From: Serpentinicella alkaliphila
Lineage (GTDB): Bacteria > Bacillota > Clostridia > Peptostreptococcales > Natronincolaceae
Assembly: GCF_018141405.1 (NCBI RefSeq)
Contig: NZ_CP058648.1
Span: forward strand, 1,813,001 to 1,877,000
Direction of reading: 5' to 3'
Length of the DNA: 64,000 bases
Shown: piece after piece, positions 6,607 through 63,941 of the stretch
How positions within the stretch are numbered: position 1 is the stretch's first letter
Layout: each line of letters begins with the position of its first letter
Made by a program: the position numbers and the translations under genes
Notes under the pieces: generated by a model
Seen by the model: the letters and a program-made list of their open reading frames with translations, nothing else
Database searches by the model: none
Told to the model about the DNA's origin: nothing

Positions 6607-6624
6607 TATAAAAAATATGAATAA

Positions 6625-6664
6625 ATATATGGCTTAAGATAATACTATCTTGAGCCATATATTT
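6625..6664 (+). terminator. Intrinsic terminator after first dehydratase pair
   Basis: Long stem (ATATGGCTTAAGATA / TATCTTGAGCCATAT, one G-T pair) with a 4-base loop, followed by ATTTT. It separates the first module from lcdC. Confidence 0.85.
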
Positions 6665-6854
6665 TATAAAATTCAAAAATAATCACTTTCAGTTAAAATT
6701 TTCACCAAATTCAATTATTTTTATCTTTCATATTTATAAAATATAGTATAAAATCAATTATGAGAGTATTAAATGACAATGCTATTAGTATGTCATTAAG
6801 TAATAAGCGTAAAAATTTAAAACCTTCTTTATTTTCTGTAAAATTTGTACATTA

Positions 6855-6883
6855 TTGTACAATGGAAATATAAGTGTTATAAT
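6855..6883 (+). promoter_or_regulatory. Sigma-A promoter of the lcdC-lcdA-lcdB unit
   Basis: TTGTAC (6855-6860), a 17-base spacer and TATAAT (6878-6883). The -35 lies in a repeated TTGTACA motif (6845-6851 and 6855-6861) that could be an operator. The predicted start near 6890 gives a leader of about 110 bases. Confidence 0.7.
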
Positions 6884-6925
6884 ATCATTAATATGTGATT
6901 TAAAAGTAAGAAGATCGATGAATTT

Positions 6926-6960
6926 CTGTAGTTATTGGACAGACCGCCTGTCCACTACAG
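6926..6960 (+). promoter_or_regulatory. Structured 5' leader hairpin before lcdC
   Basis: Two stacked perfect helices: CTGTAG pairs with CTACAG, and TGGACAG pairs with CTGTCCA around a 5-base ACCGC loop. A 4-base bulge (TTAT) lies on the 5' side only. It is unusually GC-rich for this genome and no T-run follows. It lies about 40 bases before the lcdC start. Confidence 0.6.
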
Positions 6961-7001
6961 GGGTGGGTCTATATAGTATGCTAGGAAGGAGATCAAAGTT
7001 T

Positions 7002-7787
7002 ATGCTTACGATGGGAATCGATATTGGTTCTGCATCTTCTAAAGTAGTTATATTAGAAGATGGTGTAAAAATTATTGCTGCAGAAGTTATACAAATTGGA
7101 ACTGGATCATCAGGACCAAAGAGAGTAATTAGTCAAGCACTTGAAAGTGCAGGATTAACTATTGAAGATATGGACAGAATTGTAGCGACTGGCTATGGAA
7201 GATTTGCAATTGAAGAAGCTCATAAACAAATAAGTGAGATTAGTTGTCACGCTAAGGGAATAGCGTTTTTAGTGCCAACTGCTAGAACAATCATCGACAT
7301 AGGTGGACAAGATGCAAAGGCCATTAGACTTGATAGTAATGGTGGCGTTAAGCAGTTCTTTATGAATGATAAGTGTGCAGCTGGAACTGGACGTTTCTTA
7401 GATGTAATGGCTAGGGTACTAGAAGTAGAGCTTGAAGAAATGCAAGATTATGATGCTAGAGCTACAGAAGTAGCTACTGTAAGTAGTACTTGTACTGTAT
7501 TTGCAGAATCTGAGGTAATATCACAATTATCTAAGAATGTAGCAAAAGAAAATATAATAGCTGGGGTTCATCAATCCGTAGCAGCAAAGGCCTGTGGTCT
7601 AGCATATAGAACAGGACTAGAAGAAGATATAGTTATGTGTGGTGGAGTTGCAAAAAATGCAGGGGTAGTTAGAGCTATCAGTAGAGAGCTTAAAAAACCT
7701 GTAACTATAGCGCCAAACCCACAAATAACAGGGGCTCTTGGAGCTGCACTATTTGCTTATGAACAATTGATTAAAGAAAGTCAATAG
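7002..7787 (+). CDS. lcdC: 2-hydroxyacyl-CoA dehydratase activase (ATP-dependent electron donor)
   Basis: A 261-residue BadF/HgdC-type activator of the ASKHA fold. Dimers hold one 4Fe-4S cluster and use ATP hydrolysis to push an electron into the dehydratase. Visible are the N-terminal phosphate loop MGIDIGSASSK, DIGGQDAKAI, and the cluster cysteines C125 (DKCAAGTGRF) and C164 (SSTCTVFAESEV). GGVAKNAG and the C-terminal GALGAALFAYE are also present. I chose ATG 7002 because of AGGAAGGAG 10 bases upstream and the family's usual MxxMGIDIGS start; the frame stays open upstream to 6855 but that part is unlike the family. It is followed 31 bases later by lcdA. One activase probably serves both beta copies. 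Confidence 0.93.
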   Translation: MLTMGIDIGSASSKVVILEDGVKIIAAEVIQIGTGSSGPKRVISQALESAGLTIEDMDRIVATGYGRFAIEEAHKQISEISCHAKGIAFLVPTARTIIDIGGQDAKAIRLDSNGGVKQFFMNDKCAAGTGRFLDVMARVLEVELEEMQDYDARATEVATVSSTCTVFAESEVISQLSKNVAKENIIAGVHQSVAAKACGLAYRTGLEEDIVMCGGVAKNAGVVRAISRELKKPVTIAPNPQITGALGAALFAYEQLIKESQ

Positions 7788-7818
7788 TCAATTAATATAA
7801 AAAAAGGGGGATTATGAA

Positions 7819-9066
7819 ATGACTGAAAATATGAATGCAAAACAAATGTTAGCGTATTATCAGGAAAAGTTAGACGAAGAAGCAAGACAAGCCAAGAAAG
7901 AAGGTAAACTTGTTTGTTGGTCAGCGTCAGTAGCTCCACCAGAGTTTTGTGTAACTATGGATATCGCTATGGTATACCCAGAGACACATGCAGCTGGTAT
8001 TGGTGCAAGAAAAGGTGCACTAGACATGTTAGACGTAGCAGATAGAAAAGGATACAACCTAGACATCTGTTCATATGCAAGAGTAAACCTTGGATTCATG
8101 GAATTATTAAAGCAAGAAGCTTTATTAGGAGAAACTCCAGACGTACTAGCAAAATCTCCAGCAGCTAGAGTACCACTTCCAGATCTAGTAATTACTTGTA
8201 ACAACATTTGTAACACATTATTAAAATGGTATGAAAACATTGCAGTAGAGTTAAACATCCCATGTATCGTGATAGACGTACCATTTAACCATACAATGCC
8301 AATTCCTCAATATGCAAAAGACTATATAGCAGATCAATTTAGAGAAGCAATTGCTATGTTAGAAGATATAACTGGGAAACCATTTGATTATGATAAATTT
8401 AGAGAAGTTCAAGAGCAAACTCAAAGATCAGTAGCTCAATGGAACAGACTTGCATCAATGTTAACTCATAAGCCATCTCCATTAAACGGTTTTGACTTAT
8501 TCAGCTTCATGGCATTAATCGTTTGTGCAAGAAGTAGAAGCTATGCAGAAGAGACTTTCAAAAAATTTGCTGATGAGTTAGAAGAAAACTTAGCAAACGG
8601 AGTATATGCATTTAAAGGCGATGAAAAGACTCGTGTAACTTGGGAAGGTATTGCAGTATGGCCACATTTAGGACATACTTTCAAAACATTAAAAAACCAA
8701 GGTTCAATCATGACAGGTTCAGCTTATCCAGGACTATGGAACCTATCTTATGAAGTAGGCGACATGAGTTCTATGGCTGAAGCATATACAAGAATCTACA
8801 TTAATACTTGTATAGATAATAAAGTTAAAGTTCTTAGCGATATTATCGATAAAGGACAATGTGATGGAATAGTATACCACTTAAATAGAAGTTGTAAGTT
8901 AATGAGTTTCTTAAACGTAGAAACAGGAGAAAGATTACAACAACAAAATGGACTACCATACGTAAGCTTTGATGGAGACCAAACAGATCCTCGTAACTTC
9001 GCTCCGGCACAGTTCGATACACGTGTTCAAGCATTAGCAGAAATGATGGATGAGGAGGGTAAATAA
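7819..9066 (+). CDS. lcdA: Lactoyl-CoA dehydratase alpha subunit, intact copy
   Basis: A 415-residue alpha subunit of the 2-hydroxyacyl-CoA dehydratase family. It strongly resembles C. propionicum LcdA as I recall it: VCWSASVAPPEFCVTM, YPETHAAGIGARKG, VITCNNICNTLLKWYEN and YHLNRSCKLMSF are shared motifs. Conserved cysteines C33, C44, C84, C127 and C131 include the cluster ligands. With LcdB it dehydrates (R)-lactoyl-CoA to acryloyl-CoA after activation by LcdC. The start has a GGGGG Shine-Dalgarno. The stop is 1 base before lcdB, so translation is likely coupled. The sequence duplicates 4229-5474 without the deletions. Confidence 0.95.
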   Translation: MTENMNAKQMLAYYQEKLDEEARQAKKEGKLVCWSASVAPPEFCVTMDIAMVYPETHAAGIGARKGALDMLDVADRKGYNLDICSYARVNLGFMELLKQEALLGETPDVLAKSPAARVPLPDLVITCNNICNTLLKWYENIAVELNIPCIVIDVPFNHTMPIPQYAKDYIADQFREAIAMLEDITGKPFDYDKFREVQEQTQRSVAQWNRLASMLTHKPSPLNGFDLFSFMALIVCARSRSYAEETFKKFADELEENLANGVYAFKGDEKTRVTWEGIAVWPHLGHTFKTLKNQGSIMTGSAYPGLWNLSYEVGDMSSMAEAYTRIYINTCIDNKVKVLSDIIDKGQCDGIVYHLNRSCKLMSFLNVETGERLQQQNGLPYVSFDGDQTDPRNFAPAQFDTRVQALAEMMDEEGK

Positions 9067-9067
9067 T

Positions 9068-10186
9068 ATGAGTAGAGTAGAGGCTATTTTAAATGAATTA
9101 ATGAGTATTGCTAGTAACCCTAAAAAAGCAATGGAAGATTTTAAAGCAGAAACTGGAAAAGGCGCAGTAGGTGTAATGCCTGTATACGCTCCAGAGGAAT
9201 TAATTTATGCAGCTGGATTCCTACCTATCGGTATCTGGGGTGGAAAAAGAAGCGTATCTAAAGCTAGAGCATATTTACCAGCATTTGCCTGTTCAATCAT
9301 GCAAATCGTAATGGAAATGCAAATAGAAGGTGTATACGATGATTTACAAGCAGTATTATTCTCAGTTCCATGTGATACATTAAAGTGTCTAAGCCAAAAA
9401 TGGAAAGGAACTTCAGAAACCATCGTATTTACACATCCACAAAATAGAGGATTAGAATCTGCTAACAAATTCTTAGTTACAGAATACCAAATAGTAAAAG
9501 AGAAGTTAGAGAAAATATTAGGAACAGAAATTACTAACGAAGCATTAACAAACAGTATAGAAGTGTACAACGAAAACCGTCGTGCAATGAGAGAATTCTC
9601 AGACTTAGTAAATAGCTACCCTAAAACATTAGACCCAGTAACACGTCATGCAGTAATTAAATCAAGATGGTTTATGGAAAAATCTAAGCACACTGCATTA
9701 GTTAAAGAATTAATGGCAGAATTAAAACAACAACCAACAGAAGAAATCACAGGTAAAAAAGTTGTTTTAACAGGTATCGTAGCTGAGCCATACGGAATCT
9801 TAGAAATCTTCAAAGAGAACGGCTTCACTGTAGTAGCAGACGATTTAGCACAAGAGTCAAGACAATTTAGACATGACGTTCCAGAAGGTGACGACCCAAT
9901 GCTAAGATTAGCAAAATGGTGGCAAGATCTTGAAGGATGTTCATTAGCAACAGATGTTCACAAAACAAGAGGACCAATGTTAATGGATATGGTTAAAAAA
10001 TATGATGCAGATGCAGTAGTAGTATGTATGATGAAATTCTGTGATCCAGAAGAGTTCGATTACCCAATCTACTATATGCAGTTTGAAGAAGCAGGAGTTA
10101 AGAGCTTATATCTAGAAGTAGATATGGAAGCAACTTCATTTGAGCAAATTAAAACAAGAGTACAAAGTTTTGCTGAGATGGAATAG
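9068..10186 (+). CDS. lcdB: Lactoyl-CoA dehydratase beta subunit, copy 2
   Basis: A 372-residue beta subunit that shares almost all residues with copy 1 (5476-6606). Differences are H/Y in ELI(H/Y)AAGF, a cluster around residues 180-200 (NSYPKTLDPVTRHAVIKSR), IVAEPYG for ILAEPNG, and a shorter C-terminus ending ...EME rather than ...MGLVTN. Conserved cysteine motifs are the same. The start ATG 9068 is fixed by GAGGAGGG immediately upstream. It is the last gene of the lcdC-lcdA-lcdB unit and a terminator follows. Confidence 0.95.
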   Translation: MSRVEAILNELMSIASNPKKAMEDFKAETGKGAVGVMPVYAPEELIYAAGFLPIGIWGGKRSVSKARAYLPAFACSIMQIVMEMQIEGVYDDLQAVLFSVPCDTLKCLSQKWKGTSETIVFTHPQNRGLESANKFLVTEYQIVKEKLEKILGTEITNEALTNSIEVYNENRRAMREFSDLVNSYPKTLDPVTRHAVIKSRWFMEKSKHTALVKELMAELKQQPTEEITGKKVVLTGIVAEPYGILEIFKENGFTVVADDLAQESRQFRHDVPEGDDPMLRLAKWWQDLEGCSLATDVHKTRGPMLMDMVKKYDADAVVVCMMKFCDPEEFDYPIYYMQFEEAGVKSLYLEVDMEATSFEQIKTRVQSFAEME

Positions 10187-47399: not shown

Positions 47400-49505
47400 A
47401 TGGTTTTGACTTTTCTTGATTGTTTTTTTCTCAAATCAAATCAAAGGATTAAAGATGGAATTAAGCTATTTATGAAAACAAAAAGCAACACACTCCCGAT
47501 TGTTAGTGAAGAAGGACAATATTTAGGTCTTATAGTATTAAAGGATTTAGTAAAACACCTACTTAAGGAAGAAAATATTTTGATGAAGGATTTAATAATT
47601 TGGCATGAGCCTATTCTTGCAGAAGCAAATCCATTAAATGTTGAATTTGATGAAATGGATACAATCGATATTGTGCCAGTGATAAAAACAGAGAATATGG
47701 AATTTGAAGGCTTTTATATTAAAGAGGAGATTGTAACCCTAAAATATGAAAAGCATAGGGAGCTAGTCCATGAACTTAATCAAGTTATAAACTCCTCGTA
47801 TAATGGAATTTTGGCAATTAATTCGGAAGGCAACATTATAGTATATAACACTGCAGCTGAACGAATTATGGGGAAACCAAAGGATAAGGTATTTGGTAAG
47901 CACATTTCATATGTAGATCCTGATAAAGCACTGCTAGATACATTGAAGACTCAGGAGGTTTCCGTAAATGTTAAGCGGGTAATTAATGGTTATGATATAC
48001 TTTCAAATCGAAGTCCTCTAATATACGAAGGAAGATGTATTGGTGCAGTAGGGGTATTCGTAGATAGGTCGGATATCGAGAAAGTTAGCTATGAATTAGA
48101 ATCCTATAAGAAACTATCAAAGGAATTAAATGATATACTAGAAGCTTCATATGATGGACTATACATTTGTGATAAGGAAGGACGAGTAATAAGAGTAAAC
48201 TCATCCTGGGAAAAAATATGTGGTCTATCTAGAGAATATACAATTGGAAAAACTGCACAGGAGCTAATTAAAGACGGATGGTATGATAATTCAGCCGCAC
48301 TTTTAACTTTGAAAAATAAAGAAGTATCAACAACTATGTTAGAAATAACCTCAGGTCCTAAAAAGGGCCAAATAATAATGGCAACTGGAACACCTATTTT
48401 CGATAAGAATGGAGAATTAGATTTAGTAGTAGTTAATGTAAGAGATATTACATATTTAGAGCATTTAAAAACCCAATTGGTTGAAACTATGGAGTTGAGT
48501 AAAAGATATGCGACTGAATTAGAGGAAATTCGTTTGCAGGCCAAGAAGATGGAAGATATAGTTGTTCGTAGTCCTGAAATGCAGCGGATAATGGAGCTAG
48601 CAATTAGAGTTTCAAAGGTAGACTCAACTGTAATAATAACAGGAGAGTCAGGGGTTGGGAAGGATGTTATAGCAAAGAAAATTCACTATTTAAGTAAGCG
48701 AAAAGATAAATCATATATTAAAATAAATTGTGGTGCTATACCAGAACATCTTCTTGAATCAGAGCTATTCGGATATGAAGGCGGAGCCTTTACAGGTGCT
48801 AAAAAAGAGGGTAAACTAGGGATGTTTGAGTTAGCTTCTGGTGGAACATTGTTTTTAGATGAAGTCGGAGATTTGCCCCTATGCCTTCAAGTTAAGCTAT
48901 TAAGGGCAATTCAAGAAAAAGAAATAGTTAGAGTAGGCGGAGTTAAAACTATCAAAGTAGATGTAAGATTGATCTCAGCTACTAATAAAAATCTGGAGCT
49001 AATGATTAGAGAAGGAACCTTTAGAGAAGATTTATTTTACAGGCTCAATGTAGTAAATATTCAAATACCGCCCCTAAGAGAACGGAAAGAGGATATGGAG
49101 TATTTACTAGGTTTTATGCTAAATAAGCATAATCAAAATTATGGGCTTAATAAAAAACTGGCTGCCCCTGTAGTGGAAAGATTACTTAGCTATAACTGGC
49201 CAGGAAATATAAGAGAGATGGAGAATATGATTGAAAGATTAGTTGTATTGACAGATGAAGAACAGATTCAAATAAGGCATTTGCCGGTCTTTTTACAAGA
49301 GGAATTGTCAGCTAGTAAGTTGGTAACTTTAAATAGCATTATTCCTCTTAAGGATGCTATAGAAGAGGTAGAGCAACAACTAATAAGAAAGGCCTTAGAT
49401 AAATATGTAACTACTAGGAAAGTGGCTAAAATGTTAGGCGTTAACCAGTCAACAGTAGTAAGAAAAATAAAGCAATATAGTATAGAGAAGCACGATGCAT
49501 CATAG
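47400..49505 (+). CDS. Sigma-54-dependent activator with CBS-like and PAS domains
   Basis: A 701-residue enhancer-binding protein. The N-terminal 120 residues resemble a degenerate CBS pair (NTLPIVSEEGQYLGLIVLKDL). Two PAS domains follow (about 125-225, NSSYNGILAINSEGNIIVYN; about 245-355, EASYDGLYICDKEGRVIRVN). The AAA+ domain has Walker A GESGVGKD (about 415), the sigma-54 contact loop GAFTGA (about 462) and TLFLDEVGD. A Fis-type HTH ends the protein (KVAKMLGVNQSTVVRKIKQY). It probably senses a small molecule or redox state and turns on the sigma-54 promoter 243 bases after its stop. The Shine-Dalgarno is AGGAGGGGG. Confidence 0.93.
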   Translation: MVLTFLDCFFLKSNQRIKDGIKLFMKTKSNTLPIVSEEGQYLGLIVLKDLVKHLLKEENILMKDLIIWHEPILAEANPLNVEFDEMDTIDIVPVIKTENMEFEGFYIKEEIVTLKYEKHRELVHELNQVINSSYNGILAINSEGNIIVYNTAAERIMGKPKDKVFGKHISYVDPDKALLDTLKTQEVSVNVKRVINGYDILSNRSPLIYEGRCIGAVGVFVDRSDIEKVSYELESYKKLSKELNDILEASYDGLYICDKEGRVIRVNSSWEKICGLSREYTIGKTAQELIKDGWYDNSAALLTLKNKEVSTTMLEITSGPKKGQIIMATGTPIFDKNGELDLVVVNVRDITYLEHLKTQLVETMELSKRYATELEEIRLQAKKMEDIVVRSPEMQRIMELAIRVSKVDSTVIITGESGVGKDVIAKKIHYLSKRKDKSYIKINCGAIPEHLLESELFGYEGGAFTGAKKEGKLGMFELASGGTLFLDEVGDLPLCLQVKLLRAIQEKEIVRVGGVKTIKVDVRLISATNKNLELMIREGTFREDLFYRLNVVNIQIPPLRERKEDMEYLLGFMLNKHNQNYGLNKKLAAPVVERLLSYNWPGNIREMENMIERLVVLTDEEQIQIRHLPVFLQEELSASKLVTLNSIIPLKDAIEEVEQQLIRKALDKYVTTRKVAKMLGVNQSTVVRKIKQYSIEKHDAS

Positions 49506-49747: not shown

Positions 49748-49764
49748 TTGGCATGCTTGTTGCT
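49748..49764 (+). promoter_or_regulatory. Sigma-54 (-24/-12) promoter, first catabolic unit
   Basis: TTGGCATGCTTGTTGCT has the invariant GG and GC separated by 10 bases and matches TGGCAY-N4-TTGC very well. The start point near 49776 gives a 30-base leader to the CoA-transferase gene. Candidate activator sites (TAGTGCAT at 49545-49552, TTTTTGCAAC at 49671-49680) lie upstream. Confidence 0.92.
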
Positions 49765-49805: not shown

Positions 49806-51110
49806 ATGAATAGATGGCAAGAAATGTATATAAGCAAATTAGCTTCTCCAAAAGAGATAGTTAAAGCTATAAAATCCGGTGATGTTTGTGCAAGTACTTG
49901 TGCTTTAGGAGAACCAATCGGGCTGGTTGAAGCTTTAGCTACGAGAGTAAAAGAAGAGCAGTTAACAGGAATAAAGCACCATATGCTATTAACTTTAAGA
50001 AATAATGCGTATTTATCTCCTTCAGTGTCGGATAGGTTACAACACGTTGCATGGTTTACAAGTGGATTTGCAAGAAAGGCTGTTCAAGAAGGAAGAGCAG
50101 ATTTTATGCCATGTTATTACAAGGATGCACCAAGATTGTGGAGAGAATTTGTTGAGGCTGATGTTTTCTACGCTACAGTATCGCCGATGGATCAGCATGG
50201 TTGGTTTAGCTTTGGAGTCTCTGTAAGTAATGCGAGAGCTCAGCTATCTAGAGCGAAGAAGGTATTTCTAGAAGTAAACAAATATATGCCAAGAACTCAT
50301 GGAACTGGTTTTGTTCATATCTCAGAAGTTGATGCTATATGTGAAAACGATTTACCTCTAGTTGAACTTGGGGATGCACCAATAACTGAAAAAGATGCTA
50401 TTGTTGGAAATATAATAGCTGATTTAATTCCAAATGAAGCGACTATTCAATTAGGAATTGGTGGGATTCCAAATGCGGTAGCACAAGCATTAAAAAATAA
50501 AAGAGATTTAGGTATACACAGTGAAATGTTCACAGAAGGAATGGTGGACTTAATTGAGGCTGGAGTAGTTACAAATAGAAAGAAAAATATTAACAATAAT
50601 AAAACAATTGCTGGATTTGCTGCAGGCAGTAGAAGAATGTATGACTTTCTAGATGATAATCCGGGTGTTGAATTCCATTCTATAGATTATGTTAATGATT
50701 TAAATGTAATTGCTTCCCATGAGAAGTTTGTGTCTATTAATGCAACTTTAGAGGTAGACCTACTGGGTCAGGTAGCTTCAGAGTCTATAGGACCCCGCCA
50801 ATTTAGTGGAACCGGTGGTCAGGCAGATTTTGTTAGAGGGGCTAGCTATTCAAAGGGTGGAATGTCATTTATAACCACCTATGCAACAGCTAAAAAGGAT
50901 ACAATATCAAAAATTAAGCCTACACTTACTGAGGGGTCTCACGTTACATGTACAAAAAATGATGTGGACTATATAGTAACAGAGTTTGGGGCTGCAAGAC
51001 TTAGAGGAAAGACTGCATCCGAAAGAGCAAAGACGTTAATAGCAATAGCACACCCAGCCTTTAGAGAAGAGTTAACACAAGCTGCACGAAAAATGCATCT
51101 TATTCCATAA
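49806..51110 (+). CDS. 4-hydroxybutyrate/acetate-type CoA-transferase, first copy
   Basis: A 434-residue acetyl-CoA hydrolase/transferase family protein, the size of 4-hydroxybutyrate CoA-transferase AbfT (about 438). Seen are RTHGTGFVHISEVD, QLGIGGIPNAV, the catalytic glutamate E240 in GIHSEMFTEG, and the FSGTGGQADFVRGA oxyanion/CoA loop. It should move CoA from acetyl-CoA to a hydroxy or short-chain acid. It is the first gene after the sigma-54 promoter and precedes the dehydratase-like gene. It is clearly related to the second copy at 54781. The true acid is unknown. Confidence 0.92.
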   Translation: MNRWQEMYISKLASPKEIVKAIKSGDVCASTCALGEPIGLVEALATRVKEEQLTGIKHHMLLTLRNNAYLSPSVSDRLQHVAWFTSGFARKAVQEGRADFMPCYYKDAPRLWREFVEADVFYATVSPMDQHGWFSFGVSVSNARAQLSRAKKVFLEVNKYMPRTHGTGFVHISEVDAICENDLPLVELGDAPITEKDAIVGNIIADLIPNEATIQLGIGGIPNAVAQALKNKRDLGIHSEMFTEGMVDLIEAGVVTNRKKNINNNKTIAGFAAGSRRMYDFLDDNPGVEFHSIDYVNDLNVIASHEKFVSINATLEVDLLGQVASESIGPRQFSGTGGQADFVRGASYSKGGMSFITTYATAKKDTISKIKPTLTEGSHVTCTKNDVDYIVTEFGAARLRGKTASERAKTLIAIAHPAFREELTQAARKMHLIP

Positions 51111-51254: not shown

Positions 51255-52712
51255 ATGGCATTAAAAACAGGTGAACAATATAAGGAAAGCTTAAGAAAAA
51301 TGAGACCAAACGTGTACAAGTGGGATAGATTGATTGAAGATATAACAACAGATCCAGTAACAAGAGGGCACGTTGCTTCAGTAGCACATTCTTATGATAT
51401 GAGCTTTGATGAGAAAGATGCATATATTTATACAGCAAAATCTCACTTAACAGGGGAAATAGCACACAGATGGAATACATTACCACAAACTGCTGAAGAT
51501 CAAATGCACAATGCAAGAATGAAAAGACATCAATATAGACATTCTGGAACATGTAAAGGAGCAACCTGTGCTGGTTGGACTGGAATGACAGTGCTTTGGG
51601 CTGTTACACAGGAAATGGATAAAGAATATGGTACTAACTATCATGAGCGCCTTAAAAACTATTTTAAATACGTAGAAGATAATGCACTAGCCCTAGCAGG
51701 GGCTATTACAGATGCAAAAGGTGATAGATCTCTTAAACCATCTCAACAAAAAAATAAAGATTCACATGTACACATTAAAGAAGTAAGAGAAGATGGAATC
51801 GTTATAAGAGGATACAAAACTCAAATTTGTGGTATAGTTGGAGCTAATGAGATTATAGTTGTTCCTGGTGGTGGTTACGGGGAATCAGAAAAGGATTTCT
51901 GTCTAGCAGTAGCAGTACCAAGAGATGTTGAAGGACTTACATGCGTAATTACACGAAAACCAAGTGATACTCGTGAAGAAGAAGAGGGCTGGGATGCTCC
52001 AAAAGTCGGAACAATTACACAAGCATACTTAATATTTGATGATGTATTTGTACCAAATGAGCGTGTATTTATGGCTGGTGAGTATAAATACAGTGGTAAA
52101 ATAATTGGATACTTCGCAGCAATTTATAGAGCAGCAATTGGCGCATGTGTTGCTGGTCAAGGGGATGTTATGATAGGGGCAGCAATAAATATGGCTAGAG
52201 CAAATGGTTTATCTCAAAAGGTATTTCAAGATAAATTAACTCAAATGGCCATTAATAATGAAATTAACTATGGAACTGGTTTAGGCGCTATGTTAGCAGG
52301 AAAACAGCATGAGTCTGGACTTTATATACCTGATGCTTTATTAGCTCATGTTAATAAAACTCAAGTAGCTAAACTTCCTTATGAAACAAAAGTTATTACT
52401 CAAGATATTAGTGGTGGTATTGCTGAAACCGGATGTATTCCATCATATAAAGATTTCCAATCTGAGTTATATGGAGAGCATCTATATAAAGCATTAGAAG
52501 CTGCAACCGATGGAGAATCAAGAACTAGAGCTGCTCGTTTAGCAGAATGGTTAACTGTAGGCGCAGGTATTCCTGGATGTATGCATGGTGGTGGTTCACC
52601 AGATGGCGCTAAGATGGTAGTTAAGGCTTTAACTAAGTGGGAAGATTATGCTGCTGATGCAAAAAGAATTGCAGGAATTACCGGGGAAATCGTAGAACCT
52701 AAAAAGAAATAA
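51255..52712 (+). CDS. 4-hydroxybutyryl-CoA dehydratase-like flavoprotein with altered active site
   Basis: A 485-residue member of the 4-hydroxybutyryl-CoA dehydratase / HpaB flavoprotein family, full length and collinear with AbfD (about 490). Compared from memory with AbfD of C. aminobutyricum, only one cluster ligand is plainly kept: C298 (AbfD C299). AbfD C99 and C103 correspond to a region with C100 and C105, whose spacing is one residue longer; AbfD H292 is Y291. AbfD E257, Y296, K300, E455 and T190 correspond to Q256, I295, V299, G441 and C192. FAD-binding GAITDAKGD is present. It is therefore unlikely to be an ordinary 4-hydroxybutyryl-CoA dehydratase. The cotranscribed CoA-transferase and permease imply a CoA-thioester substrate. 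Confidence 0.85.
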   Translation: MALKTGEQYKESLRKMRPNVYKWDRLIEDITTDPVTRGHVASVAHSYDMSFDEKDAYIYTAKSHLTGEIAHRWNTLPQTAEDQMHNARMKRHQYRHSGTCKGATCAGWTGMTVLWAVTQEMDKEYGTNYHERLKNYFKYVEDNALALAGAITDAKGDRSLKPSQQKNKDSHVHIKEVREDGIVIRGYKTQICGIVGANEIIVVPGGGYGESEKDFCLAVAVPRDVEGLTCVITRKPSDTREEEEGWDAPKVGTITQAYLIFDDVFVPNERVFMAGEYKYSGKIIGYFAAIYRAAIGACVAGQGDVMIGAAINMARANGLSQKVFQDKLTQMAINNEINYGTGLGAMLAGKQHESGLYIPDALLAHVNKTQVAKLPYETKVITQDISGGIAETGCIPSYKDFQSELYGEHLYKALEAATDGESRTRAARLAEWLTVGAGIPGCMHGGGSPDGAKMVVKALTKWEDYAADAKRIAGITGEIVEPKKK

Positions 52713-52873: not shown

Positions 52874-54235
52874 ATGGCGATTGTAAGAGAAAACGGAAAA
52901 GAGCAACCTTATGTACCATTTGGACCATTTAAGCTAAGAATCCCGTTCGTACATTTTAGGTGGGAGTGGCCAGAGGCAATTCAAGGAGCGTTACTGGTAG
53001 CAGTGCCTATGGGAGCAATACCAGTTTTGCAAGAAACATTAGGAGTATCATTTGAAGTAGCCCTTACTATGATGATACTAAACGGAATTTTATATATTTT
53101 ACATCCAACTTTCGGTGATCCATTATTCCCAGGATGGATTACACCAGCAATACCATTAGTATTAGGATATGCAGCCGGTTTTGAGCCAGGGGTAGACAGA
53201 ATACATTCCATCATTGCTTTGCAGCTCTCGATGGCCGTCGTATTCACTCTAATGGGAGTTACCGGATGGGCTAAAAAGATTGTAAGTAAAGTACCAGTCT
53301 CCTTAAGAGGGGGTATTATTCTAGGGGCTGGGATAGCAGCAGTTCATAGTGTTGTTAATCCAAACGGTAGAATGAAGGGTATGGAAATTACAATTATGGC
53401 AGGGGCTGTAATTTGTTATCTAGTATTATTCTCTTGGAGATTCTATGTTGCAAAGGACAAAAATACCTTCTTAAATCAATTATCTAAGTTTGGTATGCTA
53501 CCAGGATTTATAGTGGCGCTAATTCTTGGTCCACTATTTAAAGAACTACCAATGCCTCAAATTCAAATGGGTTTTTCAAGCTTAAGATTTGGTGAGTTAA
53601 TAAGTGGATATACTGTATTTGGTGCTCCGGGATTCCCACCACTTGAGTATTTTGTTAAGGCTATTCCATTAGTATTTGCTGCATATATTATTGCCTTCGG
53701 AGACTTCGTTCTTGCAGAGGTAGTTACTAAAGATGCGGATGAAGTTAGAAAAGACGAAATTATTGACTTTAACGCAAATAGATCTAATATGATTTCAGGC
53801 TTTAGAAACTTAATTATGGGATTATTTGCTCCATACGCCCCATTAAATGGACCACTATGGGCAGGTGGAACAATAGCAGCTGTAGAAAGATACAAACACG
53901 GTAGAAAGTCAATGGATAGTATTTTTGGTGGAATGGGTTCGTATATTATCGCAATGGCAATTGCTGCATTCTTTACTCCAGTAATATCACTACTTCGTCC
54001 AGCTCTTCCAGCGGGATTATCTTTAACATTAATAGTTCAAGGTTTTGCTTGCGCATATATAGCCATGGAAATGCTTAAGACTAAAGAAGAACGTGGGGTT
54101 GCAGGTATTATGGCAATATTCCTAGCCTTTAGGGGAGCATCATGGGGATTAGCTGTAGGTGTTATTCTTCACTTAGTAATAGGTGTAAGAGATATGGTAG
54201 CCCCAAAGGTAGAAAAAGAGGCGAAATCAGCATAG
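52874..54235 (+). CDS. Multi-pass permease (NCS2/SulP-like), first copy
   Basis: A 453-residue membrane protein with about 12 hydrophobic segments. Recognisable elements are HPTFGDPLFPGWITPAIPLVLG in the first half and FAAYIIAFGDFVLAEVVTKDADE, NANRSNMISGFRN and MDSIFGGMGSY in the second. The repeated half structure and the acidic D/E-rich loop after a conserved helix recall the NCS2/SulP transporters, but I cannot place it in a defined family. It is cotranscribed with a CoA-transferase and the dehydratase-like enzyme, so it probably imports the acid they use. A second copy is at 56175. AGGAGGG precedes the start. Confidence 0.8.
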   Translation: MAIVRENGKEQPYVPFGPFKLRIPFVHFRWEWPEAIQGALLVAVPMGAIPVLQETLGVSFEVALTMMILNGILYILHPTFGDPLFPGWITPAIPLVLGYAAGFEPGVDRIHSIIALQLSMAVVFTLMGVTGWAKKIVSKVPVSLRGGIILGAGIAAVHSVVNPNGRMKGMEITIMAGAVICYLVLFSWRFYVAKDKNTFLNQLSKFGMLPGFIVALILGPLFKELPMPQIQMGFSSLRFGELISGYTVFGAPGFPPLEYFVKAIPLVFAAYIIAFGDFVLAEVVTKDADEVRKDEIIDFNANRSNMISGFRNLIMGLFAPYAPLNGPLWAGGTIAAVERYKHGRKSMDSIFGGMGSYIIAMAIAAFFTPVISLLRPALPAGLSLTLIVQGFACAYIAMEMLKTKEERGVAGIMAIFLAFRGASWGLAVGVILHLVIGVRDMVAPKVEKEAKSA

Positions 54236-54494: not shown

Positions 54495-54511
54495 TTGGCA
54501 CAATATATGCA
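54495..54511 (+). promoter_or_regulatory. Sigma-54 (-24/-12) promoter, second catabolic unit
   Basis: TTGGCACAATATATGCA has GG and GC separated by 10 bases, with a perfect TTGGCAC -24 element. Upstream are ATGCACTA (54375-54382) and GTTGCAAAAA (54399-54408), the reverse complements of motifs before the first promoter. The transcript would start near 54523, about 258 bases before the coding start. Confidence 0.9.
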
Positions 54512-54522: not shown

Positions 54523-54780
54523 CAGATGTTATGGATGAGTGATTAAATGACTCTGAAAACTGCAAGTAAGTATGAAAACTTACGTAAGTTAAATCAAGAA
54601 GTATACCTTCTTGTTGGAAGGGTAGTAATCTACTGACTCGACTCAAGCTCAAAAAGTGTGATATCAAAATCAATCTAACTTAGGGATGAAGTAACAAATA
54701 GTAATAGACCTGTTTGATATTAAAGAATAGTAGGGTGTAGTGCGTTCAAGTTTATTTTATCAATGAGAGGGGAGAGCATA
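54523..54780 (+). promoter_or_regulatory. Long structured 5' leader of second CoA-transferase
   Basis: About 258 bases separate the sigma-54 start point from the gene; the first unit has only 30. Two perfect hairpins are GTAAGT / ACTTAC (54566-54583) and CAAGAAG / CTTCTTG (54595-54613). A pyrimidine-poor stretch leads to the AGAGGGGAGAG Shine-Dalgarno. I see no coding frame of note. It matches no riboswitch class I know. Confidence 0.45.
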
Positions 54781-56082
54781 ATGAAAGACTGGCAGATGGT
54801 ATATAAAAGCAAGGTTGTTACTCCAGAAAAGGCTGTGAAAAACATAAAGTCTGGTGATAGAGTAGTTGTTGCTCATGCTGCTGCAGAGCCACAAATTATT
54901 ACGGAGGCTATGGTAAAAAACTATGAGAGTTATACTGGGGTAGAGGTAGTTCATATGGTTCCTCTAGGAAAAGGAGAATATATGAGTCCAGGAATGGAAA
55001 AACATTTTAGACATAATGGACTTTTCTTAGGAGGGAAAACAAGAGGTGCCATAGCTGAAGGTAGAGGTGACTATACTCCAAGCTTTTTCTTTGAAATACC
55101 AAGACTTTTTAAAAAGGATATTTTGCCAGTAGATGTAGCATTAATTCAAGTCTCTAAACCAGATATTCAGGGCTATTGTAGTTTCGGGGTTTCTGTAGAT
55201 TATACAAAGAGCGCTACTGAGAAAGCAAAATTAGTTATTGCTCAAGTGAATGATCAGATGCCTAGAACACATGGAGAAAGCTTTATTCATATTAGTGAGA
55301 TTGACTATATTGTAGAATCTTCCCAACCAATTTTAGAGCTGCCAACCCCTAAAATTGGCGAAGTCGAAAGAAAAATAGGAGAATATTGTGCTAGTTTAAT
55401 CGAGGACGGCTCAACTCTTCAGTTAGGCATAGGTGGAATACCTGATGCAGTACTGTCATTTCTTAAGGAAAAAAGTGACCTAGGAATTCATTCCGAAATG
55501 TTTTCGGATGGGGTACTAGAATTAGTTATGAATGGTAACGTCACAAACAAGTTGAAAACCCTACACAAGGATAGATTTATTGCCACTTTCCTTATGGGAA
55601 GCAAAAAATTATATGATTTCGTAAACGATAATCCTAGTGTATTAATGTATCCTGTAGATTATGTTAATCACCCTGCTGTTATAGCACAAAATTATAAGAT
55701 GGTTTCAGTAAACTCAGCAATACAAGTGGATTTAATGGGTCAGGTTGCAGCAGAAACTATCGGATATAAGCAGTTTAGTGGTACTGGTGGCCAGGTAGAT
55801 TTTGTTAGGGGTACTTCCTTAGCCCAAGATGGAAAATCAATTATTGCATTACCATCGGTGGCCTCGGGAGGGAAAATCTCTAGAATTACACCTATTCTTG
55901 ACGAAGGAGCAGCTGTTACAACATCCAGAAATGACGTTCACTATATTGTTACCGAATACGGTATTGCAAATTTAAAGGGAAAAACCTTAAGAGAGAGGGC
56001 TAAAGAACTAATAAAAATAGCACATCCTAGCTTTAGAGAAATACTGACAGAAAAGGCTATTTTAAAGTATAAGAGCTTATAA
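54781..56082 (+). CDS. 4-hydroxybutyrate/acetate-type CoA-transferase, second copy
   Basis: A 433-residue paralogue of the gene at 49806, with PRTHGESFIHISEID, QLGIGGIPDAV, catalytic E239 in GIHSEMFSDG, and FSGTGGQVDFVRGT. I chose ATG 54781 because AGAGGGGAGAG lies just upstream; an earlier ATG at 54763 would contain that site. It should transfer CoA to a short organic acid. It is followed by a permease but not by a dehydratase-like gene. The paralogue may serve a different acid or growth condition. Confidence 0.92.
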   Translation: MKDWQMVYKSKVVTPEKAVKNIKSGDRVVVAHAAAEPQIITEAMVKNYESYTGVEVVHMVPLGKGEYMSPGMEKHFRHNGLFLGGKTRGAIAEGRGDYTPSFFFEIPRLFKKDILPVDVALIQVSKPDIQGYCSFGVSVDYTKSATEKAKLVIAQVNDQMPRTHGESFIHISEIDYIVESSQPILELPTPKIGEVERKIGEYCASLIEDGSTLQLGIGGIPDAVLSFLKEKSDLGIHSEMFSDGVLELVMNGNVTNKLKTLHKDRFIATFLMGSKKLYDFVNDNPSVLMYPVDYVNHPAVIAQNYKMVSVNSAIQVDLMGQVAAETIGYKQFSGTGGQVDFVRGTSLAQDGKSIIALPSVASGGKISRITPILDEGAAVTTSRNDVHYIVTEYGIANLKGKTLRERAKELIKIAHPSFREILTEKAILKYKSL

Positions 56083-56174
56083 CATGAAAATTAACTTCTG
56101 ATAAAAGTTTATGAAATCTACAAAAGATTTTCTATGAGATAGTAGATAGATTAATTTAATGAGGAGGTTAATTT

Positions 56175-57530
56175 ATGAAAAGAAGTTATGGTGGAGAACA
56201 ACCATATTTTGCAGCAGGTATATTCAAAATAAGGCTTCCATTTATACACTATAGATGGGAATGGTCCGAATGCTTACAGGGCTTATTAATGTGTGCTACA
56301 TGTCTAGGGGCAATACCTATTTTAACAGGAACCCTTGGTATATCTTTTGAATTAGCATGGTCAATGGTTATTATTAACGGAATTTTATATAGTCTTCATT
56401 CTCTTTTAGGTGATCCAGTAGTTCCGGGATGGATAACACCTTCTATACCTTTAACAATTGCATTTTTAAATGAGTATGCTCTTGGTATAGAAAGGATACA
56501 GGCGCTAATAGCATTACAAATTCTAGTAGGACTAATGTTTATTATTATGGGCATAACTGGGGTTGCTGGTAAATTGATAAGAATAGTACCTAGTTCTTTG
56601 AAAGCTGGGATTTTACTAGGGGCTGCCATAGCAGCAGTAACAGGTGAATTTAAATTGGGTGGAAGATTTGGATCATACCCTATGGCAATTTTAATTGGTG
56701 CTTTAATTGCTTACTATATTCTTTTCTCAGATGGATTTAAAAATTTGAGGAAGAGTTCTCAAGCTGCAAACTTACTTGGAAAGTATGGAATGCTACCTGC
56801 AATAATTGTTGCGATTATTGTTGGCCCATTATTTAGTGAGTTGCCTATGCCACAAATAGAGATAGGGTCTGTTATAAAAATTCCACAGGTAGGAGAATTA
56901 TTTAAAAATGTAAGTCCTTTTGGAATTGGTTTTCCAGCAGTAAACTTGTTTATTCAAGCTATTCCGATGGCCTTTATTGCATATATTATAGCATTTGGCG
57001 ATTTTGCAACTGGGGAAGCTCTTATAAAAGAGGCTGATGAAGCAAGGCCAGATGAAGTAATAGATTTTAACTCAAATAGATCTAATCTAGTAAGTGGTTT
57101 TAGAAATATTATTCTAGCACTAATAGCTCCTTATGTTACTTTAGCAGGTCCCCTTTGGGCTGCAGTAACAGCTGCGGTTTCACAAAGATACCAAGAGGGC
57201 AGAGAAGCCATGGATTCAATCTTTAGCGGAGTTGGTACCTTTAGATTAACTACACTTGTTGCAGTTGCGTTGGTTCCAATAGTTTCATTAGTACAGCCAG
57301 TACTACCAGTTGCCCTATCATTAACATTATTAGTTCAAGGCTATGTTTGCGCAAGATTAGCTATGAATATTTGTGAAAATGATGCAGATAGAGGGATTGC
57401 AGGTGTAATGGGTGCTGTACTAGCCACTAGGGGAGCAGCCTGGGGATTTGTTGTTGGTATCGTATTATTCTTTGTGTTATCAGATATTAGTAAACTAAAA
57501 AAGCAAAAAAAGACTGAGACAGTTGAATAA
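56175..57530 (+). CDS. Multi-pass permease (NCS2/SulP-like), second copy
   Basis: A 451-residue paralogue of the permease at 52874. It shares GGEQPYFAAG at the start, LGDPVVPGWITPSIPLTI, AFIAYIIAFGDFATGEALIKEADE, NSNRSNLVSGFRN and MDSIFSGVGTF. About 12 membrane segments are predicted. With the preceding CoA-transferase it forms the second sigma-54 unit. The strictly kept acidic loop and NRSN motif are probably substrate- or ion-binding. GAGGAGG precedes the start. Confidence 0.8.
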   Translation: MKRSYGGEQPYFAAGIFKIRLPFIHYRWEWSECLQGLLMCATCLGAIPILTGTLGISFELAWSMVIINGILYSLHSLLGDPVVPGWITPSIPLTIAFLNEYALGIERIQALIALQILVGLMFIIMGITGVAGKLIRIVPSSLKAGILLGAAIAAVTGEFKLGGRFGSYPMAILIGALIAYYILFSDGFKNLRKSSQAANLLGKYGMLPAIIVAIIVGPLFSELPMPQIEIGSVIKIPQVGELFKNVSPFGIGFPAVNLFIQAIPMAFIAYIIAFGDFATGEALIKEADEARPDEVIDFNSNRSNLVSGFRNIILALIAPYVTLAGPLWAAVTAAVSQRYQEGREAMDSIFSGVGTFRLTTLVAVALVPIVSLVQPVLPVALSLTLLVQGYVCARLAMNICENDADRGIAGVMGAVLATRGAAWGFVVGIVLFFVLSDISKLKKQKKTETVE

Positions 57531-57666: not shown

Positions 57667-58932
57667 ATGAATAGAAAAAAGATAACAGTTAAAGAGATAT
57701 TGGTAGATAGATATGAGGACTTTAAAAACACATACTGGTCTAGAGTTCCTAAGGTTATGAGAGAACATATAGATGATCTAGTAAATAAGGCTATAAATTG
57801 TAGCGATGTTAAAAATGGATATGCCGAATATATATGTGAGGATTGTTTTAGTGTAACGAAAGTACCATTTACATGTAAAAGCAAGTTTTGCAATAAATGC
57901 GGAAGAGTATATACACTAAAATGGGAAAAAAGCAAACAACAGAACATGTTAAGGGTAGGGCATAGACATAGTGTATTTACAATGCCTAAGGAACTGAGAA
58001 ACTTCTTTTATGCAAGGAGAGAATTATTAAAAGAATTGCAGGATGCAGTATACAACGTAATTTCATATTGGTATAAAAATAATAGGAAATGTGATTATGA
58101 AGTAGGTATAATAGCTGTAGTGCACACCTTTGGAAGAGATTTGAAATGGAACCCACATATACATGCATTAGTAACAGAGGGAGCAATAGATAGAAATAAT
58201 AATTGGTGGAAGAGTGTTGAATATATACCATATCCATTTTTGAAGAAAGCATGGCAGAAGGTGCTACTAGAAATAATTAAGAAATATTTTAATAGTTATG
58301 AAACCAGGCAGCTAATAAGTGAGATGTATAAAAGATATCCAAATGGGTTTTATGTTAATGCAAAGAGAAAACTGAATGATACAAGACAAGCAGTAAAGTA
58401 CATAGGAAGATATCTTGCTAGAGCAGCTATAGCAGAATATAGAATAGAGGAATATGATGGAGAAAAGGTTACGTTTTGGTATGAAGATCATAACGATGGA
58501 AAAAAAGTAAAGATAACTATGGATGTGTTAGAATTTATAGGAAAAATAACACAACATATAGTACCTAAAGGATTCAAGACAGTAAGAAGATATGGACTGT
58601 ATTCAAGGAGAAGAAATAAGATATCCAAGGATATAGTGCATCTATATAATTTTATGAAGGAAAAGTCTATAGAAAAATTGCTTAGGGATAAGAGAAAAAG
58701 TTTTGAAAAGAAAAAGACCTGGAAAGAGAGGATTATAGAGAATTTCGGAAGAAATCCACTTTTATGTGTAAAATGTACCACTGAAAAAATTTTATGGAGA
58801 ATATGGCATAAAGACTATGGGGTGATATATGATATAAGAGAATCTAGGGATATGGAGGAAATATTATATGAGCCCATTAGTAGAGCGCCATTACAAAGAA
58901 AAGTTGTACAAATATCATTGTTTGAAGTGTAA
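57667..58932 (+). CDS. IS91-like transposase (HUH type)
   Basis: A 421-residue rolling-circle transposase. An N-terminal zinc finger (C57, C60, C70, C75, C78; YICEDCFSV, FTCKSKFCNKCGR) is followed by SVFTMPKELR, the metal-binding HUH motif NPHIHALVTEG and the catalytic tyrosine region AVKYIGRYLAR. It nicks single-stranded DNA and moves the element by rolling-circle transfer. It looks intact. It lies between the second permease and the second sigma-54 activator, so the insertion probably split an older gene neighbourhood. Its Shine-Dalgarno is weak. Confidence 0.9.
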   Translation: MNRKKITVKEILVDRYEDFKNTYWSRVPKVMREHIDDLVNKAINCSDVKNGYAEYICEDCFSVTKVPFTCKSKFCNKCGRVYTLKWEKSKQQNMLRVGHRHSVFTMPKELRNFFYARRELLKELQDAVYNVISYWYKNNRKCDYEVGIIAVVHTFGRDLKWNPHIHALVTEGAIDRNNNWWKSVEYIPYPFLKKAWQKVLLEIIKKYFNSYETRQLISEMYKRYPNGFYVNAKRKLNDTRQAVKYIGRYLARAAIAEYRIEEYDGEKVTFWYEDHNDGKKVKITMDVLEFIGKITQHIVPKGFKTVRRYGLYSRRRNKISKDIVHLYNFMKEKSIEKLLRDKRKSFEKKKTWKERIIENFGRNPLLCVKCTTEKILWRIWHKDYGVIYDIRESRDMEEILYEPISRAPLQRKVVQISLFEV

Positions 58933-59173: not shown

Positions 59174-59324
59174 ATACAAATAATAAGTAGATTTAAAATA
59201 GTGATAGAAAAAGGTTTTCTAAATATTAATATCGAATAAAAAGTAGTACAAGCTAATATATTTATATAAGACCTTATTAACTTCTAGAAAATAAATATAT
59301 TCACAGTTCTAAGGTGGGATGAAT

Positions 59325-61064
59325 ATGAAAATGAATTATAAACTACTTGAGTATGTTTTAAACAATTCTATAAATGGTGTTGTAATCGTAGAAAATGATT
59401 TTAGTATAAAGTATATGAATAAAAGAGCTAAAGAGATTCTTGAGCTAGTGGATTCATATGAAAATCATCACTTATATGAATTTTTTTTGTTAGAGGAATT
59501 AGACAAACTTGAGAGGCAAGGTATTGATGAGTTTGATAAGCTTCATTATAAAAATAAAACATTAAGTGTGAGTACACTATTAATAGATAATTTAATGGGA
59601 TATAGTGGAAAAGCATATATTCTGCAAGATATTTCAAAATATAAAAATATAGTTGATCAAATCGATAAATATAAGGAGCTTAATAAAACCCTGGAATGTA
59701 TAATTCATTCTTCCTATGATGGTATATACGTAACTGATGGTCAAGCCAATACTCTTATGATAAATAGTGCCTACGAGAGAATTACCGGAATTAAAGCTGA
59801 AGAAGTATTAGGAAGGAATATGAACGACTTAGTAAAAGAGGGTCTTTTCAGTCAGTCTAGTTCATTATTAGCAATTCAGGAAAGAAGGCAGGTAACAATA
59901 AGGCAGCTTATAAAGCAGTCTAAAGAGGTTTTAGTAACTAGTACACCTGTATTTTTTAAGAATACAATTACACATGTTGTAACAAATGTTAGGGATATTT
60001 CTGAATTAGTGGATTTAAAGATAGAGCTTATGGATACAAAAGCCTTAAATGAAAGATATTTAACTGAATTAGAATATATAAAAAGCAAACTTATAGATAC
60101 GCCAGAAATAGTAGTCAGGGATAGAAATATGTACAAGGTTATAGAAATGTCTTTAAGGGTAGCAAGGGTCGATACAACAGTGCTATTAAATGGAGAAACA
60201 GGTGTAGGAAAGGGAGAACTATCAAAATTTATACATAAAAATAGCCCTAGATCAAAAGGGTGTTTTGTAGAGGTAAATTGTGGTGCTATACCCCAAAATC
60301 TTATTGAGTCAGAGTTATTTGGTTATGAGAAAGGTGCATTTACTGGAGCAAGCAGTAAAGGTAAGATAGGGCTTTTTGAACTAGCTAATAATGGTACAAT
60401 TTTTCTCGATGAAATATCTGAGTTGTCACTAGATTTGCAAGTTAAATTATTAAAGATTATCGAAGATAAGAGGGTTATTAGATTAGGCGGAAATAAATCT
60501 ATGCCGATAGATGTCCGTATAATTGCTGCGACTAATAAAAATATTAAAGAAATGGTTGAAAAAGGAAAATTTAGAGATGATTTATATTATCGTCTAAATG
60601 TAGTTCCAATATATATATATGCCTTAAAAGAGAGAAAGGACGATATAATACCTTTAAGCATTAAGTTTTTAAATGATTTTAATAGGAAATATAATATGGA
60701 TAAAAAGCTAGCCCCTAGTGTATTAAATAAATTTTTAGACTATAATTGGCCAGGAAATGTGAGGGAACTTAGAAATTTAATTGAAAGAATTGTCGTCATT
60801 TCTAGTGAGAAGCAAATAAATGAAGATATAATACCTGAGTATATTATAAAAAAAGATATAAAAACCCAGGAAGATGGCGGCGAATATTCAAGCTATAAGG
60901 AAGGTTATGAGGGTATGTCCTTAAAGATGGCTACTCAAAACTTTGAAGCAAAGTTAATAAGCCATTCAATAAAAAAATATGGTTCAATTAAAGAGGCTGC
61001 AAAGCATCTGGATATAGATGCCTCAACTATAAATAGGAAATTAAATAAAAATAGAAAAAAATGA
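59325..61064 (+). CDS. Sigma-54-dependent activator with PAS domains
   Basis: A 579-residue enhancer-binding protein. Two PAS domains (about 5-105, NNSINGVVIVENDFSIKYMN; about 120-225, HSSYDGIYVTDGQANTLMIN) precede an AAA+ domain with Walker A GETGVGKG (about 290), GAFTGA (about 337) and TIFLDEISE. A Fis-type HTH ends it (SIKEAAKHLDIDASTINRKL). I chose ATG 59325 because AGGTGG lies 7 bases upstream; ATG 59319 would abut that site. It lacks the CBS-like part of the first activator. It probably controls one of the two sigma-54 promoters. Confidence 0.92.
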   Translation: MKMNYKLLEYVLNNSINGVVIVENDFSIKYMNKRAKEILELVDSYENHHLYEFFLLEELDKLERQGIDEFDKLHYKNKTLSVSTLLIDNLMGYSGKAYILQDISKYKNIVDQIDKYKELNKTLECIIHSSYDGIYVTDGQANTLMINSAYERITGIKAEEVLGRNMNDLVKEGLFSQSSSLLAIQERRQVTIRQLIKQSKEVLVTSTPVFFKNTITHVVTNVRDISELVDLKIELMDTKALNERYLTELEYIKSKLIDTPEIVVRDRNMYKVIEMSLRVARVDTTVLLNGETGVGKGELSKFIHKNSPRSKGCFVEVNCGAIPQNLIESELFGYEKGAFTGASSKGKIGLFELANNGTIFLDEISELSLDLQVKLLKIIEDKRVIRLGGNKSMPIDVRIIAATNKNIKEMVEKGKFRDDLYYRLNVVPIYIYALKERKDDIIPLSIKFLNDFNRKYNMDKKLAPSVLNKFLDYNWPGNVRELRNLIERIVVISSEKQINEDIIPEYIIKKDIKTQEDGGEYSSYKEGYEGMSLKMATQNFEAKLISHSIKKYGSIKEAAKHLDIDASTINRKLNKNRKK

Positions 61065-62419: not shown

Positions 62420-63941
62420 CTACATCTTTTTAATTATATTGGGGATTTCATTACTTAGCAGAACATTCTTTTCAATCTTAAATATGTCTTTGTTTATTTT
62501 ACTATTAAGTAATTTGTCTGACATTATATATAATTTGTCTACTTTGTAATCAATTTCATCTATTATAAATCCTTCTAGTCCATTGATTATTTCATAGGTA
62601 GATAATTCAACTTTATTCACTGCTAACTTATACTCTAATATTCTTTGCATTACTAAGGCTAAATAACAAATTAAAAAATGCGACCTAATTCTTCGTTCTT
62701 TAAAGTGATATACTGGTCTTGTTTTTAAATTTGTTTTTAATATTCTAAAGGATTCTTCAATTTTATATAGAGATTTATAAGCTACCATTATATCTCTTTG
62801 GGTTCATATCCACTTTATTTGTAACAATGTAAAAATATCCGAAATTTTCTTGCTCTTGTTTAATTATTTCCTCATCAATTTCAATGTTTATTTTTTCTTT
62901 AGGGTTTTCTACTGCTTTATAATACTTGCTTTTGGATTTAGTTGTTGAATTGATTGTAAAATCCTTTATATTCTTTTTAGCTCTTTCAATCATTTTCTCT
63001 TGTTTAAACATCTCACGTTCTTTGTAGACATCTGAATATTTTTTTATGATTAATTCGTCATAGGTTTCATCATTCTGACTCACCTTTCTTTTACTGGTTA
63101 TATATCCGCTTTTGTATTTAGCTTCTGCATTAGAAGTTATGTTCCAAGATGAATTAAATTTCTTCTCTTTTAAATCTTTAGGAACTGCACTGCCCTTAGA
63201 ACCTACAATGTAACTAAGCCCTTTACCTCGAATCATCTCTAAGTTAGCCCTTGAATTTAAGCCCCTATCAGCCACTATTATGATTTCTTTTATGGTGTAA
63301 TTATTTAATATATCGTCAATGACTTCTTCCATGGTATGTAATTCATGTTTGTTGCCTTTAAAAAGCCTATAAGAAATAGGTATCCCATTGGTGTCTATTA
63401 GTAAGCCCATAACAACTTGTGTTTCATTTCTTTTATTATCCTTACTCATACCTCTTTCTCTAAATCCGTCTTCATCAAAAGACTCAAAGTAATAGGTTGT
63501 ACAGTCATAAAATGCTAATGACATATTTCTATCTGGAATAATCTTTCCTATATGATCATTTAAATGTTTGAAAAGTTTATTTTCATTCATTTCAAAATTT
63601 TTATCATAGGTAGCTATATTTTGTTCCAATTCATCAGAAGTGTTTTTAATGTTATATTCTAATATTTTTTTAGCCTCTGAATCAACGGTATCTAAGAGGA
63701 TTTCCATGTTTTTTATGAGCTGAACTCCATCTGTTAGTGCTTTAGATTTATGTTTATTAAATCCAGAAAAAACATCTAGGGAAGAATAAATGTTATCGCT
63801 ATTCACAAAACTGAAATCATATAGGAAATCATCTTTTCTAGAAGCCACTTCAAGCTTGCTTGAAGGATTAAATAATCTACCAAGTACCTGATAGAACATT
63901 AAGTTACTAAAGGAATAATCTAGTTTAGAATCTTTCACCAT
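62420..63941 (-). pseudogene. IS1634/IS4-like transposase, frameshifted
   Basis: Two overlapping frames on the minus strand make one transposase of about 500 residues. The first (63941 to 62775) has FYDCTTYYFESF (catalytic Asp), IIIVADRGLNSRANLEMI (second Asp) and ends YIVTNKVDMNPKRYNG. The second (62788 to 62420) continues with YKSLYKIEESFRILKTNLKTRPV, which holds the catalytic Glu of the DDE triad. One base is lost near 62785 in CCCAAAGAGATATAATGG. Without it or a frameshift event the protein lacks its third catalytic residue. The gene start is near 63941; terminal repeats were not found. Confidence 0.8.

Follow-up and report, generated by a model that had tools for sequence, protein, structure and literature searches.

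4-Hydroxybutyryl-CoA dehydratase (4HBD, AbfD) is an unusual enzyme, whose flavin radical chemistry goes together with a [4Fe-4S] cluster that has a His ligand. Enzymes of this family use FAD, deprotonate their substrate at C2 and exchange one electron with the flavin, close to which the Fe-S cluster is located. In the AbfD of Clostridium aminobutyricum (1U8V), the cluster ligands are C99, C103, H292 and C299. The HpaB-type FAD monooxygenases (4-hydroxyphenylacetate 3-hydroxylase, 2YYK) share the superfamily fold and the Pfam domains, and function without a cluster. BbuA, too, catalyzes a redox-neutral elimination with a flavin, on a C4 acyl-CoA, and reactions of this kind are considered below. 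This gamma-butyrobetainyl-CoA TMA-lyase is of the acyl-CoA dehydrogenase type, has only ~10% identity to 4HBD, and is encoded in a setting of class III CoA-transferases and a BCCT transporter (PMC8364193).

The window analyzed here, a stretch of 64,000 nucleotides from Serpentinicella alkaliphila (NZ_CP058648.1), encodes a flavoprotein (51255-52712, Table 1) that is homologous to AbfD over its full length (phmmer E 2e-85 to 1U8V, residues 3-475 on 2-489, ~37% identity) and carries both the HpaB_N and HpaB Pfam domains, which bears out the collinearity with AbfD claimed in the first-pass annotation of this DNA. At an E-value of 0.001, these two were the only Pfam domains found, acyl-CoA dehydrogenase domains (including the BbuA type) being absent, and the protein scored below the NCBIfam HpaB cut-offs (TIGR02309, 136 of 480 bits; TIGR02310, 65 of 885 bits). 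Current family models place it and its relatives only under 4-hydroxyphenylacetate hydroxylase-like proteins. An initial structure model built on 10 close sequences reached a pLDDT of 44; a second one, from 11 sequences (with the canonical L114 from a viral-contig scan added), reached 65, a grade suited to comparing folds and not to measuring distances between cysteines. With VIA-align, the predicted model gave Z-scores of 40.3 with the AbfD of N. maritimus (6VJR) and 39.2 with 1U8V (2.6 Angstrom, 387-390 residues), versus ~27-32 with HpaB-type monooxygenases (~31 for 2YYK, at ~23% identity in the structural alignment). Judged by its sequence, the protein is paralogous to 4-hydroxybutyryl-CoA dehydratase/vinylacetyl-CoA isomerase, from which it has diverged, and belongs to a distinct clade, whose members, unlike the HpaB-type enzymes, possess the cluster cysteines.

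The departures from AbfD were read from an alignment of 74 sequences, 27 of the clade and 47 others. The AbfD residue numbering behind the first-pass annotation was checked on the 1U8V sequence, where C99, C103, T190, E257, H292, Y296, C299, K300 and E455 proved correct, and the exchanges deduced from it are all present. While the three Cys ligands are shared with AbfD, one residue is inserted between the first two, CKGATC (C100, C105) standing for CFQRC, i.e., CxxxxC for CxxxC. The His ligand is lost, Y291 being aligned with H292; E257, Y296 and K300 are changed to Q256, I295 and V299; C192 stands at the T190 position; and a four-residue deletion ahead of C442 spans the position of E455. Throughout the clade (27/27), K300 is replaced by Val, Y296 by Ile or Met, and E257 by Gln or Ser. 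We also found two clade-specific cysteines absent from the earlier annotation, namely C442 and C394, the latter lying in an insertion (393-394) preceded by an invariant Glu (E391). As the same exchanges recur in the whole of a monophyletic clade of 27 sequences, they cannot be ascribed to chance. The protein lacks the His ligand and the active-site set that define AbfD, and the name "4-hydroxybutyryl-CoA dehydratase" is therefore unsuitable for it. With the His ligand and most of the acid/base residues gone, the standard dehydration is probably not the reaction catalyzed, as had been suspected from the start.

The [4Fe-4S] cluster itself is probably kept, the His ligand being exchanged for a Cys, in which case C100, C105, C298 and either C394 or C442 would form an all-Cys site. 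The first-pass annotation had offered a choice between an all-Cys cluster, ligated by C100, C105, C192 and C298, and the loss of the cluster. This particular set of four fails at the level of the clade: C192 is Ala in 7 of 27 members and was rejected as the fourth ligand, and for the same reason C394 or C442 appears a better candidate. Loss of the cluster seems less likely than ligand exchange, because C100, C105 and C298 are invariant across the clade. The enzyme might have become an acyl-CoA isomerase or dehydrogenase that depends on FAD only, with cysteines of structural role, given that its His ligand is gone and that the aligned HpaB-type monooxygenases do without the cluster cysteines; yet the conservation of these cysteines down to 47% identity would be unexpected had their role disappeared, and we consider this unlikely. 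Somewhat doubtful, too, is a cluster held by three cysteines with one open iron, where substrate or water would replace His and C192 and C442 would act as catalytic thiols. The invariance of the three ligands in all 74 sequences, the variability of C192 and the lack of a clade-wide substitute His agree with such a site, but the near-invariant, clade-specific C394 and C442 are at hand as ligands. The C-terminal part of the second model that holds these two cysteines has a pLDDT below 50 (residues 367-403 and 405-462).

The 27 sequences, which come from anaerobic Bacillota and Syntrophaceae, form their monophyletic clade with a bootstrap of 100. A scan of genome contigs yielded ten loci with 66-79% identity to the 51255-52712 protein, in MAGs labelled Negativicutes, Selenomonadales, Clostridia, Syntrophomonadaceae, Syntrophaceae and Deltaproteobacteria, and also in the cultured Anaerospora hongkongensis, whose orthologue lies at L039:10001-11440. 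Searches within the order, class and phylum of the source organism gave G067 (70%), three same-genus genomes (63-65%) and eleven further genomes (47-79%), where G952 and G577/L041 are counted once and the counts concern mainly Bacillota, the source organism's own phylum. The deepest member (L113:6842-8320; 47% identical to the 51255-52712 protein and 42% to AbfD) has a Glu at the position of the AbfD His ligand and keeps C100, C105, C192, C298, C394 and C442. All matches in a plasmid search were below 37% identity, and no relatives came up when viral contigs were scanned with A1 or with the canonical AbfD of S. alkaliphila. Four divergent 4HBD-like side families (L075, L063, L079, L082) have altered flanking residues around canonical CxxxC/His/Cys ligands, so that, among the sequences seen, the loss of His is special to the clade. 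No description of the clade was found in the literature searched, a coverage that excludes most subscription journals. As far as our searches tell, it is a real and conserved variant within the 4HBD family that had not been named before. It is widespread among fermenting and syntrophic anaerobes, which points to an unassigned step of short-chain acid or amino-acid metabolism.

The gene is the middle one of a sigma-54-type operon (CoA-transferase, flavoprotein, PurT-type permease) that is preceded by the regulator gene. The same gene families recur at canonical AbfD loci, which carry a transferase in 16/21, a sigma-54 regulator in 17/21 and a permease in 8/21 cases. The three neighbors (reg1, CoAT1, PurT1) are paralogues of the members of this canonical 4-hydroxybutyrate module, and synteny ties them to the clade: CoAT1 is 77-81% identical to the transferases beside the closest clade members versus 44-48% to those beside canonical AbfD, and the corresponding PurT1 orthologues are 74-76% identical. 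Sigma-54 promoters recur as well: sites as perfect as the one ahead of CoAT1 lie 67-69 nt upstream of its counterpart in L033, L041 and L066, and ~70 nt upstream of a PaaK-type gene in L101 and L107. Downstream of the operon, the window holds another set of the canonical kind, consisting of a transferase and a permease (54763-57530) and a regulator (59319-61064). CoAT2 is clearly canonical, sharing 61-76% identity with the transferases of canonical AbfD loci versus 41-46% with those of clade loci. PurT2 (46-80%, where PurT1 reaches 48%) and reg2 (38-59%, where reg1 reaches 38%) are close to some canonical-locus homologs only, L117 being the best match of both. The whole uptake-and-activation module thus seems to be the product of a duplication, absent from the first-pass annotation, after which it diverged in step with its dehydratase, which suggests a substrate that resembles 4-hydroxybutyrate but is distinct from it.

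Table 1. Features of the 51255-52712 locus and of the downstream module, in window coordinates.
Feature	Position	Strand	Evidence or conservation
reg1, CBS/PAS/AAA+ sigma-54 activator	47400..49505	+	Pfam; 58-67% identical to regulators beside close clade members
Sigma-54-type promoter TGGCATGCTTGTTGCT, upstream of CoAT1	49749..49764	+	perfect consensus match
CoAT1, 4-hydroxybutyrate/butyrate CoA-transferase family	49806..51110	+	Pfam AcetylCoA_hydro; best PDB match 3eh7
4HBD-like flavoprotein, 485 aa	51255..52712	+	ORF, phmmer, Pfam, structure model
C100 codon (AbfD ligand C99)	51552..51554	+	Cys in 74/74 aligned
C105 codon (AbfD ligand C103, spacing +1)	51567..51569	+	Cys in 74/74
C192 codon (AbfD T190)	51828..51830	+	clade: 20/27 Cys, 7/27 Ala
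Y291 codon (AbfD ligand H292)	52125..52127	+	clade Tyr 26/27, Glu 1/27; others His 47/47
C298 codon (AbfD ligand C299)	52146..52148	+	Cys in 74/74
C394 codon, clade-specific 2-residue insertion (E-T-G-C)	52434..52436	+	clade 27/27; gap in 47/47 others
C442 codon (AbfD S456, beside E455)	52578..52580	+	clade Cys 26/27; others Ser 43/47
PurT1, PurT-type permease	52874..54235	+	phmmer to 7TAK PurT E 1e-107
Sigma-54-like promoter, 1 mismatch, upstream of CoAT2	54496..54511	+	
CoAT2, canonical 4-hydroxybutyrate-cluster-type transferase	54763..56082	+	identity comparison
PurT2, canonical-cluster-type permease	56175..57530	+	80% identical to L117 permease at best
reg2, canonical-cluster-type sigma-54 activator	59319..61064	+	59% identical to L117 regulator

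Several other genes are more frequent at the clade loci than at the canonical ones. Acyl-CoA dehydrogenases (ACAD) were found at 11/28 clade loci versus 2/21 canonical loci, Etf at 13/28 versus 2/21, 2-oxoacid:ferredoxin oxidoreductases at 6/28 versus 0/21 and PaaK-type ligases at 4/28 versus 0/21, counts that include related genomes (L067/L068, L109/L110, L035/L037) and make the Fisher p-values optimistic. Butyryl-CoA-dehydrogenase-type enzymes are the closest relatives of the L037 ACAD, and L033, L041 and L066 also have crotonase and Hbd at the locus. The gene order in L109 and L110 runs from a TRAP transporter and an alanine-dehydrogenase/ornithine-cyclodeaminase-like protein through VorB-type oxidoreductase genes to the clade enzyme, ACAD and EtfBA. 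These neighborhoods suggest that the clade enzymes act on a small acid in the form of its CoA ester, supplied through acid activation or 2-oxoacid decarboxylation, and that their product is passed on to the ACAD/Etf pair. The acid-activating genes themselves vary from locus to locus (AbfT-type and FadX-type transferases, PaaK-type ligases, besides the 2-oxoacid oxidoreductases), and the clade may therefore cover more than one substrate specificity.

Two other functions were weighed against these neighborhoods. The enzyme could still be a 4-hydroxybutyryl-CoA dehydratase that uses other cluster ligands and persists as a back-up isozyme, since its transferase, permease and regulator families are those of canonical loci and the best solved relatives of CoAT1 are 4-hydroxybutyrate CoA-transferases, among them 3eh7. 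However, the acid/base residues are replaced clade-wide, PaaK-type ligases and 2-oxoacid oxidoreductases do not occur at the canonical loci, and S. alkaliphila encodes a canonical AbfD elsewhere in its genome (G000:C1:3044172-3045617), as do most genomes of the clade relatives, so that the canonical job is already covered; a back-up role is, in our judgment, quite improbable. Release of an amine or a thiol was also considered, namely of TMA from gamma-butyrobetainyl-CoA, ammonia from 4-aminobutyryl-CoA or methanethiol from 3-methylthiopropionyl-CoA. Such reactions would fit the TMA methyltransferase-type and corrinoid-protein-like genes upstream in L042, the MetQ-type transporter upstream in L039, and the amino-acid dehydrogenase-like gene and VorB-type oxidoreductase in L109/L110, but each of these links is confined to one locus or to one genus-like pair, and the known TMA-lyase BbuA is a different type of protein (PMC8364193). 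We hold this family of reactions to be very doubtful, and the TMA-lyase proposal prompted by L042 was rejected on the same two grounds, its single locus and the protein type of BbuA.

Our preferred reading is a diverged FAD/Fe-S enzyme, probably with an all-Cys cluster, that would convert the CoA ester of a small acid, probably other than 4-hydroxybutyrate, to an enoyl-CoA, a reading to which we give about equal weight for and against. That the substrate is probably not 4-hydroxybutyryl-CoA is read from the protein itself, as not only the His ligand but also E257, Y296, K300, E455 and T190, which line the AbfD active site, are changed. The PurT-type permease would import a small carboxylic acid, and the CoA-transferase would link it to CoA and hand the thioester to the 51255-52712 enzyme. 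There, FAD is very likely retained, and the enzyme probably works along lines similar to AbfD: the substrate would lose a proton at C2 and exchange an electron with FAD, undergo an elimination or a double-bond shift, and have the electron returned. The handling of a 4-hydroxyl would be lost. The predicted enoyl-CoA could then enter a butyryl-CoA-dehydrogenase-type ACAD/Etf or crotonase, Hbd and thiolase. A more specific version, in which the all-Cys flavin/[4Fe-4S] enzyme would act on an acyl-CoA that lacks a 4-hydroxyl, for example of isobutyryl type, through a new redox-neutral radical isomerization or elimination, is hinted at by the VorB-type neighbors in L109/L110 and by the 2-hydroxyisobutyryl-CoA synthetase that is the best solved relative of the PaaK-type ligases; we regard it as a decidedly unlikely guess. 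If this all-Cys reading without a 4-hydroxyl were true, it would provide anaerobes with a new entry into butyrate-type metabolism. In any case, a clade that has kept the three cysteines while losing the His ligand and most acid/base residues reveals which parts of the AbfD machine can be changed, and amounts to a natural experiment on the role of its His ligand.

Several further observations concern the surroundings of the locus. The PurT-type permease might be taken as a pointer to purine metabolism, which we rejected because the same permease family occurs at 8/21 canonical AbfD loci; the family may carry 4-hydroxybutyrate-like acids and not purines. An IS91-family transposase (57667-58932) lies between the CoAT2/PurT2 pair and reg2, and two adjacent minus-strand ORFs at 62420-63941, the larger of them a DDE transposase, possibly correspond to a broken element. 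At the other end of the window, the 1828-10186 stretch comprises a CoA-transferase gene and two genes for 2-hydroxyglutaryl-CoA-dehydratase D-components (5458-6606 and 7819-9066), besides a third ORF of similar size (9050-10186); these genes belong to a radical acyl-CoA dehydratase system of another kind, unrelated to AbfD.
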